Positions 9,191-34,976 of a stretch of 64,000 nt of DNA are shown here, piece after piece; positions within the stretch are counted from its first letter, which is position 1; every line of letters starts with the position of its first letter. Source of the DNA: Bryum argenteum (taxonomy: Eukaryota; Streptophyta; Bryopsida; Bryales; Bryaceae); contig CM073328.1 of assembly GCA_037043015.1 (NCBI GenBank), positions 4,265,409-4,329,408 on the forward strand, given 5' to 3'. Made by a program: the position numbers and the translations under genes. The notes beneath the pieces were generated by a model. The model was not told the origin of the DNA, did no database searches, and worked only from the letters and a program-made list of their open reading frames with translations.

Positions 9191-10233
9191 GGAAACCGGA
9201 GAGTTGCAGTCTTTGAGTGCGCATCATCAATCTGGGGGAGTAAGTGCTTGAACCAGCAATCTGTACCCGTGTTTATTCCAAAATGAAGATTTTCGTCTTA
9301 AGGGGCAGTTGTGATTCCGATAAGCATGCTTTCTATAACAGAGTTTCAAATGTTATATGTATATCTAGCATTGCAAGAGCATTTACGAGCGGCCGCCATA
9401 TTCTTCTCTTGGGTTTGTGGTCTGATATTGAGAATTGGGATCCACCAGAACGTTCGATGTCGACAATCCTATACCTTGTGTCTCTCCAAGATTTGACTCA
9501 CCGCCCCTTCCGTGTGGTGGATGAAATCAATCAAGGTACCTCTCTTTCTTACCTGACTTAATGCTTTTGTGGTTACGTACACGTTTTTCTGAAATGATCA
9601 ATCTCGATCTTTGTTTGATTGATGAGTTGTGGTTGAATTTTCTTGCGTAGGCATGGATCCTCAAAACGAGCGCAAAATGTTTCAACAACTTGTGAGGGCT
9701 GCCAGTCAGTCGAATACCCCACAGTAAGTTGCTCCCTGGAAGTGATACATCATTCACTTTTGCAAAATCTGAAAAATTCATTCACATCATACAGCAGAAT
9801 TATGAGGAATCTTTGAAAAAGCGAAGTTTCGTGTTCGTAGGACTCGCAAAATTCTTACTCTCATTCATGATCGTAGAGCATAGAAAGCGTATGACCATCT
9901 TAATATTATCATGGTAGACGTTACCAGTGATGATGTTCTATTGGCTTCCCAATGCAGGTGCTTTCTGTTGACTCCAAAGCTCCTCCCTAACTTGGAGTAC
10001 ACTGAAGCCTGCACCATCTTGAACATCATGAACGGTCCTTACATCGATGAAGCGGCTGAAAGTAAGTTTGTCAATAGGGCTACCCTTTTCTTAGGTTCAC
10101 TCTTTTCCTCAGTGGGTTGTTCAATACTTTCGGTAGTTGGGTTCTCAAGGTGGTACTGGTTGGGTATTGTGATGCAGGGTGGAAAGATGGATATTCATGG
10201 GCGACGGTCACTCAAACCGTGGCGTCACATTAG
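9191..10233 (+). pseudogene. SMC5: SMC5 C-terminal fragment, copy 1 (exons A-E)
   Basis: Exon A 9,191-9,239 ends in the ABC signature (LSAHHQSGG). Exon B 9,449-9,535 carries the Walker B segment FRVVDEINQ. Exon C 9,651-9,723 reads GMDPQNERKMFQQLVRAASQ, exon D is 9,958-10,061 and exon E 10,178-10,233 (TAG). Phases join: A ends in phase 0, B leaves one base, C starts GC and ends CA, D starts G and ends with one base. Exons C, D and E are intact. Exon B is 87 nt where 88 is expected, a base being absent right after CAG at its acceptor. The CAG acceptor of exon A reads CG. No SMC5 exons are seen in the preceding 8.7 kb, so this is a duplicated gene end, not a full gene. Type is set to pseudogene for that reason, not because of the indels. 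Confidence 0.8.
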
Positions 10234-10755
10234 TAGACAGTGAATTACATTTATGAGGTTTTTGATCATCTGAAAGTTATCCCTTGTAGCAGTATATGGG
10301 CTTGCATGTAACAAGTAGTTCTAGAGCCGTCGACTTTTCGAACAGATTTGATTATGTATTTTATGGCATGTTCTGAAATTTAATTCTCTGGCCCACTCTA
10401 TTGGGAAAGATCATGACAACCTTGGCGGAAAGTAGGTGAACTGCTTTCGTTTGACATATCTGTGAACAAAATTGGAATCATAATTCTCTCTTCCTTTTTA
10501 AATTATCTGGCCTTTTTAGCAATCCTACACACTATCTAAAGCTTCCTTATGAAATTGTGCTCTATTTCAAGTGCCATTTTTGTGAGTTTCGTAAACCAAT
10601 ATTCGTCATGTTCATCCTATGAATAGGATCCATGTTTGCACGTTATTAGGTAAAGCAGCGCCTGCACATGCGTGTTTGGACACGAGGTGCTTGAATATGG
10701 GTGTTCCTATCTTATATTCAAATTGGGTAAGTGATCAAATGAGAATATGCTAGTA

Positions 10756-11046
10756 AGGTAGAGTGTCCTAAAAGCGCCACAGGACCCAAAAGCGATCTGT
10801 CCTCATTTGTAGATTGTGAAGATACAGATGTACCTCATTTGTAAATAACGCATTTGGGTCAAATCTTACTTGGCACTTTGGTATTTTGTCTAAAATTCAC
10901 AAATGCGAATTACATGTTGCAAATTTTTGCAATCCTCCCGAAAACCTATTTCGAATGTGGTCATATTTATTTTGAATTTACTAGTGCTAAAAATAGGTCA
11001 GATCTCTTAAGGTGGCGCTTTAACCTGCTTTTAGGACACTCTACCT
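10756..11046. mobile_element. TA-flanked MITE in unit 2
   Basis: Copy of the unit 1 element (1,047-1,318) at the same place in the unit, with the same inverted ends and flanking TA at 10,754-10,755 and 11,047-11,048. It is about 19 bases longer than the unit 1 copy. Confidence 0.8.
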
Positions 11047-32020: not shown

Positions 32021-33926
32021 TACAAGCAAGCAGATTGCACAACCGTGTTACCGATGCCCTTCTTGTCTCACTCCACATGCGTTCGAAGGTTCCAAGTTCA
32101 GAAAGTATATCATGAATGGCAATTCGAGCTAGCTAGTACCCCCTCTTTTGGGTAGAATTCCAGCAAGGTAACTAAGGCCAATTCATATGTGCGGTATCTT
32201 ATTAATACTGGGGGAGCAAAAAAAAAACAGGGGGTCTTGTAGATTATTCTCTACTCTACTCATAAAGTTTTGAAGCGGGGAAAGGGATCGTTTGAAATCT
32301 CAACCATTCTTTCAACAAGCTTGTGATGAATAATGCATGCTTTCCATTCGAAAATAGCAGTTGAATGTTGTGACAGAAGTGAGAGTTTTAGAACGCTTTC
32401 GTGAGAGATAGAATACGGGGGTCCGCAATTGGTATGAAAAAAGAAGAAAACTTGGGGAAATACTCATGAAGTGTAAGTTTGAACGAGTAATTTGAATGTT
32501 AGTATTCGTCAACATGGTACAATCATGTCAAAGTCAACTGGGGCACCTCAGAATTGGGTCACTTCTAAGAAAAAAGGCTCTGAAACTTCAAGTAAAGCAA
32601 GCATTGGTTCAATTTCATTTGTATCATTGCAAATTCATAGCAAATGCATTGCCATCGGTTTCAATTTTATTGCACAATTTGACCTCGAACTGATTGGAAT
32701 GTGGCTGGAACTGATTGCCTTGGTGAGCTGGAAGTTGGAACAATTTGTACATGAGAATTTGTGGATTCTGTACAGGTAATATCAAATTGTAAGTACTTTG
32801 AATCTGTTTACAAGAGATTCATAAAATGGATGAATTGGACACCAGAAATGGGTCGAGTTCAAAAAAAGTAATCGAAAGTGTGAGTAAACATTTGGTCTAA
32901 AAGAAAGTAATTGAAAGCGTGAGCAAAGCATTGGTTCTTTTTATAAACATTTGATGAAGATTTGCATCATTCTATTCAAAGCGTTCACTTGCATTTTCAT
33001 TGCCTTGAAATCGTAGCATGTTCATTGCATTTTGGTATCCTTTTTTGTTGCCCGGGTATAGCATTATATATGAATGCATTCTAATTTGAACGCCTTTCCC
33101 ATCCTTGAAGGCCGAATCCCTTTGTGAACATATTAAGAACCTATATCATTCATGTTTTGGAACCATCTGCCATGCAGAATTGCTTCAATTCTTGGAGGAC
33201 ACTCACCAAGTTCAAAGGCTCCGTCCGTGATTTGTCAACTATGGTACAATCTGTTACTATGGTACAATCTGGTTTGACACTTTGATAGACGGATCGTTGG
33301 CTTAACAAAAACAAAAATCACCCACAACCCACAATGAAATTAGTTGAACGTAGAAAAGAGATTACTTTCACCGGAGCAAGTTCCCAATCATAAAGGCTCG
33401 ATCGCTTGAAGGAATGCGTTTGCTGGACGAAAGAAAAACAAAATTATAGTAACCACTGTCAGCCATGGCCATGGCCACTGACACGCCGGCCCTGGTAGGT
33501 AGACTACCACCCTACACCATAGGTTCAAAACTATATATATCTCTCTTTAGTCCTTTTCTCGGACATCCCACCCCCTTCATCACTCCCTCCATCTCCCCCG
33601 CACGCACATCCAATCTTGCTTCCCGTACATTTCACTCCACACGCTTCGCGAATCTTCAAACATTTCCTAGATCATTCCTCTTCCGGATCCTCACAACGCA
33701 AATCTTTCGATCGTCAACTTACTCTTTTATCTATAGTGAACTTTTATCTATTAATCGTGAAATTTCATCGAGCATTTACACGATTTTGACAAGTACGGCA
33801 TTCTCATAAAAGTAAAATTCGGTGATTACTACTCCTTACCCTCGTCATAGGGTTGTTGCAATCGGTAAGTGATCCAAGCATGAACATCAGCGATGTATGA
33901 TTATGCTTTTGCTTGCTTCACGATCG

Positions 33927-34976
33927 GGAAACCGGAGAGTTCAGTCTTTGAGTGCGCATCATCAACTGGGAGTAAGTGCTTGAACCAAGCAATCTGCACC
34001 CGTGTTTATTCCAAAATGAAGATTTTCGTCTTAAGGGGCAGTTGTGATTCCGATAAGCATGCTTTCTATAATAGAGTTTCAAATGTTATATGTATATCTA
34101 GCATTGCAAGAGCATTTACGAGAGCGGCCGCCATATTCTTCTCTTGGGTTTGTGGTCCGATATTGAGAATTGGGATCCACCAGGAACGTTCAAGTGTCGA
34201 CAATCCTATACCTTGTGTCTCTCCAAGATTTGACTCACTTTGCCCCTTCCGTGTGGTGGATGAAATCAATCAAGGTACCTCTCTTTCTTACCCGACTTAA
34301 TGCTTTTGTGGTTACGTACACGCGTTTTGGAAATGATCAATCTCGATCTTTGTTTGATTGATGAGTTGTGGTTGAATTTTCTTGCATAGGCATGGATCCT
34401 CAAAACGAGCGCAAAATGTTTCAACAACTTGTGAGGGTGCCAGTCAGTCGAATACCCCACAGTAAGTTGCTCCTGGAAGTGATACATCATTCACTTTTGC
34501 AAAAGATGTACAAAATTCATTCACATCATACAGCAGAATTATGAGGAATCTTTGAAAAAGCGAAGTTTCGTGTTCGTAGGGTTCGCAAAATGTTACTGTC
34601 TCATTCATGACTGTGTAGCATAGAAGCGTATGACCATCTTAATATTATCATGGTAGACGTTACCAGTGATGATGTTCTATTGGCTTCCCAATGCAGGTGC
34701 TTTCTGTTGACTCCAAAGCTCCTCCCTAACTTGGAGTACACTGAAGCCTGCACCATCTTGAACATCATGAACGGTCCTTACATCGATGAAGCGGCTGAAA
34801 GTAAGTTTGTCAATAGGGCTACCCTTTTCTTAGGTTCACTCGTTTCCTCAGTGGGTTGTTCAATACTTTCGGTAGTTGGATTCTCAAGACCGGTGGTACT
34901 GGTTGGGTATTGTGATGCAGGGTGGAAAGATGGATATTCATGGGCGACGGTCACTCAGACCGTGGCGTCACATTAG
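33927..34976 (+). pseudogene. SMC5: SMC5 C-terminal fragment, copy 4 (exons A-E, array edge)
   Basis: Exon A is 33,927-33,971 (short by four bases, at CAG and CTG sites). Exon B is 34,184-34,274 (91 nt; its acceptor reads CAGGAAC, the only copy that restores the GAA codon for the E of SGGERS). Exon C is 34,390-34,461 (one base short at GGCTGCC). Exon D 34,697-34,800 is intact (104 nt) and exon E 34,921-34,976 ends in TAG. This is the copy next to unique flanking DNA. No upstream SMC5 exons are recognised between copies 3 and 4. Confidence 0.8.

Follow-up and report, generated by a model that had tools for sequence, protein, structure and literature searches.

The tandem array at the start of a 64,000-nucleotide stretch of the Bryum argenteum genome raises the question of whether differences between its near-identical copies are real or were introduced by sequencing. 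This stretch (GCA_037043015.1, 258.8 Mb in 25 contigs; contig CM073328.1, hereafter C8; C8:4265409-4329408) is the window analysed here, and its first 35 kb consist of units of about 9.7 kb that carry exons B to D of SMC5. A first-pass annotation of positions 9191-34976 had proposed that the copies differ at CAG/CTG sites, that these differences are consensus errors linked to CHG methylation, and that they double as a methylation map. We consider a technical origin of the CAG/CTG (CWG) differences close to certain. Their best explanation, and very probably the correct one, is nanopore miscalling of CHG-methylated CAG/CTG that could not be polished away in near-identical copies.

All units lie on the forward strand. 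Unit a (1..9712) and unit b (9713..19486) are 97.9% identical by BLAST, a scaffold gap of 100 N (19487..19586) then interrupts the array, and unit c (19587..24743), which lost its 5' part at the gap, is followed by unit d (24744..34450) and partial unit e (34451..35191), with an extra 310-bp piece at 35421-35730. Upstream of the window lie two more copies, p and q, one of them broken by another 100-N gap. Long BLAST matches between units show 95.9-97.9% identity, with gap openings nearly as numerous as mismatches (one match over 15 kb has 201 mismatches and 175 gap openings), and some 300-base stretches are identical across all four copies a to d.

Many of the differences proved to fall on CAG/CTG, far more than by chance, as had been claimed. 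Of the 159 events that separate unit b from unit d, 89 involve a CAG or CTG of b, while 12.9 ± 3.3 are expected from 300 random placements on the MAFFT alignment (highest random count, 26). Tabulation by trinucleotide context, which the first-pass annotation had suggested, revealed the same excess: from b to d, CAG/CTG was altered at 91/202 occurrences (45%), first of 32 folded trinucleotides, compared to 12% for the next class and an average of 6.5% over all trinucleotides. CWG was also altered at 45/143 occurrences from b to c and at 40/202 from b to a. CCG/CGG, altered at 13/126 from b to d, barely exceeded the average, so that the CHG context originally named is narrowed to CWG. Among a, b and d, unit b retains the most CWG; relative to all 221 sites, CWG is missing at 24 in b, 37 in a and 103 in d, the most altered unit, and at 47 of the 152 sites covered by unit c, for which the corresponding counts are 13 in b, 16 in a and 73 in d. 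Consistently, the observed-to-expected ratio of CWG is 0.48 in unit d, with 34.1 CG per kb, compared to 0.71 and 29.7 in unit b. Over the window set, with five alignments that overlap one another, homopolymer indels account for 135 of 846 events and CWG for 440. The signature extends beyond the annotated interval to unit a and to arrays on three other contigs.

Ambiguous gap placement could, in principle, push differences onto CWG, and gap registers are indeed ambiguous in places, with two sites counted twice in the comparison to outgroups described below. This alternative was rejected and can practically be dismissed, since MAFFT and its random-placement controls agree with BLAST at other gap costs, and many of the changes, GCTGC>GCCGC for example, are simple substitutions.

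The form of the changes likewise points to miscalling. From b to d, the difference rate is 0.322, 0.173, 0.085 and 0.050 at 0, 1, 2 and 3 bases from the CWG centre and drops to 0.012 at distances of at least 12 bases, a profile that places the footprint of the errors within a few bases around the motif. The usual changes are CAG to CGA, CGG or CG and CTG to CCG, TCG or CG, mostly length-changing or multi-base, although plain substitutions are frequent too. Among single-edit CWG losses, a CG was gained in 29/38 from b to d (13.5 expected), 15/17 from b to c (6.0) and 15/20 from b to a (6.4), and, in the arrays on the other contigs, in 40/51 on C7 (18.0), 19/25 on C11 (9.4) and 15/27 on C6 (9.3). 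Under a cruder null that includes all lost-CWG events from b to d, the bias is weaker, as CG increased in 49/81, compared to 43% for random alleles.

The sites picked out in the SMC5 exons illustrate these changes. The exon C splice donor strings reported earlier were all located: the CAG form, CACAGTAAG, at 9716..9733 and 34454-34471, the CGA form, CACGATAAG, at 19444-19461, and the TGA form, CATGATAAG, at 24747-24764. A fifth copy at 4-21, absent from the first-pass annotation, again reads CACAGTAAG, so that the donor is broken in two of five window copies, while CAG is common to all three outgroups, namely the related exons on C10 and the dispersed copies on C8 and C9. Exon B varies at 9437..9467, 19163-19194, 24468-24500 and 34172-34204. 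Its CACCAG site has four variants over the four copies (9437, 19163, 24468 and 34172), as described, but at the TTC(AG)TGTCG site we found three variants rather than four, with TTCGATG in two copies and TTCGGTG and TTCAAGTG in one each. Exon D of copy 3 (24977..25087), re-counted relative to unit b, indeed lost seven bases in all, the losses falling at five places of which four are CAG/CTG sites, and has one additional T>C. Around the exons, variable CWG occurs in 45 alignment rows that could be compared to the three outgroups. The outgroups have CWG in 21 rows (in two of which copy q is the only copy that has it), the altered form in four, two of which are an already counted site in another gap register, and neither in 20. 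Where the outgroups decide, the broken forms are therefore departures in individual copies.

Real mutation offers a different account, in which deamination or faulty repair would alter methylated CHG sites in copies that are decaying pseudogenes. CHG-methylated cytosines do mutate, a few of the lost-CWG events are C>T or G>A (15/358 over six sets that share copies), and the copies do differ genuinely in places: units p and q, upstream, do not have segments that unit a has, which weighs against a purely technical origin. Deamination (CAG to TAG or CAA) was nevertheless rejected as the main cause, as it would account for those 15 events only. Furthermore, most of the changes alter length or span several bases, with a bias towards CG, and a single site can have different alleles in different copies while long stretches remain identical. 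Diverged pairs of dispersed repeats of about 370 bp, located downstream of the array (41628-42004, 54543-54914 and 60709-61085; 91-93% identity, one inverted), show another pattern, with mostly substitutions and CWG events at 2/21, 6/25 and 4/24, counts that have no chance expectation behind them. We thus regard real mutation as very unlikely. The enrichment, its decay with distance, the CG direction, the outgroup polarity and the scarcity of C>T and G>A changes together uphold the earlier proposal of technical consensus errors at CAG/CTG.

Two dispersed copies of the SMC5 end, at C8:5904678 and C9:4598913, share 98.8% identity over 6.4 kb, which, judged from sequence, is a recent inter-chromosomal duplication separate from the tandem array. 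In this pair, 25/56 and 13/22 events touch CWG in either allele, again as raw counts with no chance expectation, and many are plain substitutions, with some CGAT/CAGT swaps.

Whether methylation triggers the miscalls is a separate matter, on which the arrays on C11, C7 and C6 are informative. These arrays have units of 8.8 kb, and neighbouring copies are mostly 97.6-98.7% identical. Events involving CWG exceed expectation in all three (C11, 76/336 with 24.0 expected; C7, 127/694 with 46.7; C6, 67/546 with 32.2), and CWG, altered at 79/961 sites on C11 and 130/1392 on C7, is among the top trinucleotides, as are CG-containing ones. When positions are folded onto one unit, most of the alterations lie within a domain of about 3 kb of the 8.8-kb unit: altered CWG sites number 96/208 in bins 4500-6999 versus 4/864 in bins 500-3999 on C7, 61/158 versus 4/592 on C11, and 37/94 versus 13/601 on C6, with bin limits set after inspection of the table and adjacent-copy alignments counted in both directions. 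Values in bin 4000-4499 lie in between, and on C7 the first bin has 13/113. Domain profiles correlate between arrays (rho = 0.79 for C7 and C11, 0.61 for C11 and C6, and 0.47 for C7 and C6, p = 0.06). At C8 15598-16879, CWG is altered at 23/42 sites, while the 82% identical C7 counterpart is clean (bins 2000-3499, 1/329). Given that homologous sequence is misread on C8 and clean on C7, and that, within each of the three arrays, miscalled CWG in one domain contrasts with almost intact CWG in another, misread status is not set by sequence alone.

A clean island within the C8 units adds to this domain structure. Its 962 bases do not differ between units a, b, c and d (5196-6157, 14932..15893, 20235-21196 and 29946-30907), and none of its 27 CWG sites is altered, compared to 142/195 elsewhere (Fisher p = 4e-14). 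Its homologues are altered at 1/98 CWG sites on C11, 1/151 on C7 and 3/107 on C6, compared to 51/395, 63/544 and 40/403 outside.

Several results weigh against methylation-triggered miscalling. The clean island is free of non-CWG differences too. CCG, likewise a CHG context, is hardly affected on C8, and on C6, CCG/CGG (61/775 altered) is slightly above CWG (67/1001). Homopolymer indels exceed CWG events on C7 (120 versus 110 of 347) and C6 (85 versus 60 of 273), while on C11 they number 44 of 168, with CWG at 68. When all lost-CWG events are compared, no CG is gained in 35-50% of them. The copies agree poorly on which single sites are altered: altered sites of units c and d overlap modestly (odds ratio 3.6, or 2.0 outside the clean island), those of a and d do not overlap beyond chance (odds ratio 1.0), and unit a holds a block of errors over which b and d do not differ, with many of its private differences clustering at about 1080-3270. 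On C11, C7 and C6, altered bins have a lower GC content (rho = -0.49 to -0.57). CpG depletion relates inconsistently to altered domains, weakly negative on C11 and C6, absent on C7, and positive without significance on C8; with such mixed results, CpG and CWG depletion were not used as an independent methylation footprint. Given the poor reproducibility of sites and the error block of unit a, a copy-specific factor, probably read placement or polishing, matters as well, and, given the GC-poor altered bins of three arrays, coverage or base composition could contribute.

Some of these points would also fit an error that is technical and arises in nanopore reads but owes nothing to methylation, with CWG intrinsically hard to call and the domains produced by uneven polishing, coverage or base composition. 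The copy-specific blocks, the poorly reproduced single sites, the island free of every type of difference and the AT-richer altered bins of three arrays all favour it. Against it, the altered domain occupies the same unit positions on three contigs, and altered blocks on C8 are not AT-rich (rho = 0.25 with GC). To our knowledge, unmodified CAG/CTG is no nanopore weak spot, while methylated CCWGG is a documented one (Wick et al., 2019). We therefore consider this alternative unlikely, though less so than real mutation. Methylation as the cause, as first proposed, retains indirect backing from the domain restriction, the contrast between C8 and C7 and the precedent of Dcm methylation discussed below, and is qualified by the GC confounder in three arrays. 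The idea that the error map is a CHG methylation map holds for domains but does poorly for single sites, for which a fine map was dropped: what can be read is domains filtered by polishing.

That nanopore data underlie the assembly is suggested by a plant-type telomere array at C7:50857-53556, in which TTTAGGG units pass into CCCAGG and then CCTAGG units, ending at a 100-N gap. The array sits about 50 kb inside the contig and is perhaps a misplaced chromosome end. Its degradation is probably a nanopore repeat-calling artefact by analogy to human telomeres, where nanopore data, unlike HiFi data, were reported to show (CCCTAA)n as (CCCTGG)n, with similar errors in Arabidopsis (Tan et al., 2022; PMC9414165). 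Variant telomere repeats may also be real, and taking CCCAGG as the plant equivalent of that miscall is our own reading. While the present array passing into CCCAGG resembles those errors, its unit is not the human one, and the driver named in that study is similar current profiles of the repeats rather than methylation (Tan et al., 2022). The homopolymer indels described above are also in keeping with nanopore data.

A closer precedent is found in bacteria, where about 70% of consensus errors under default models were reported at Dcm CCAGG/CCTGG sites, with homopolymers as the second error class (Wick et al., 2019; PMC6591954). That system shares with ours a 5-methylcytosine motif built around CWG, systematic errors in the consensus, models untrained on the methylation in question and homopolymers as the other main class. 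It differs in that here any CWG is affected, in domains, with products that lean towards CG, in near-identical tandem copies, and with methylation deduced rather than known. Plant CHG methylation of the CMT3 type prefers CAG/CTG over CCG and occurs in domains. The errors described here share both features, although in our case methylation is read from the miscalls themselves.

Based on these results, we infer the following mechanism. CAG/CTG cytosines in affected stretches would carry 5-methylcytosine, and a basecaller that learned modified C mainly in CG context would render CWG as CGA, CGG, CCG, TCG or CG, or else drop or add a base there, as though a modified C must be CG. The multi-base pore signal would spread errors over a few bases. 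In unique sequence, short reads would normally mend such errors; in near-identical tandem copies, they would be unplaceable or gather on a copy that already matches. Each copy may thus retain its own errors, because short reads cannot be reliably placed there. Methylation as the trigger, the basecaller behaviour and the failure of polishing are all deduced from the assembled sequence.

Exons B to D represent the C-terminal end of SMC5, based on an 84-aa reading that matches solved SMC5 chains (best E 3.8e-27, 80 residues) and has a Pfam SMC_N match below cut-off only; these C-terminal exons are the only part of the gene identified, and the rest of the protein was never searched for. Pfam scans of a few readings returned none above cut-off, and Rfam and tRNA scans of the window had no matches. 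Relatives of the SMC5 exons comprise one on C10 and the two dispersed copies, and matches are confined to C8, C9 and C10. A tandem repeat family of 8.8-9.7 kb occurs on several contigs (window 1-35191, C11, C7 and C6), with more matches on C3, and the C7 unit matches window 12266-18691 piecewise, with the exon part excluded. Given the restricted SMC5 matches and a C7 unit that does not include the exon part, the C8 units seem to combine this repeat with the SMC5 end. Each unit further contains a sub-repeat of about 137 bp, three in a row and roughly 82-92% alike (14352-14762, with equivalents at 4614, 19656 and 29378).

This kind of error is already known in bacteria; products that tend towards CG, and domains that can be read from nothing but an assembly, are the aspects we have not met elsewhere. 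Among open-licence PMC papers, a narrow basis, we found none that deals with CHG-caused errors in plant assemblies. The idea is not far from print, as a 2020 review already suggests basecalling models specific to plants and names methylation among the causes of base errors (PMC7501810). A broader proposition, for which we see the case as evenly balanced, is that nanopore plant assemblies hold a readable trace of the CHG methylome, in which CWG-to-CG discordance between near-identical repeats marks CHG-methylated domains. If this is general, FASTA files would suffice to locate such domains, together with one class of false pseudogenes. CWG-to-CG discordance also provides a cheap quality test and may, with no further data, hint at CHG methylation at the domain level.

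For the Bryum argenteum array, the broken frames and splice sites of the copies should not be trusted as real. Under the broader proposition, CHG domains would also carry CpGs that do not exist, along with frameshifts and lost splice sites that are likewise false. In tandem arrays of such assemblies, misreads that look like frameshifts, stops or splice losses of one copy would be mistaken for pseudogenes or fast evolution, divergence dates of recent duplicates would be too old, and CpG counts of affected regions would be too high.

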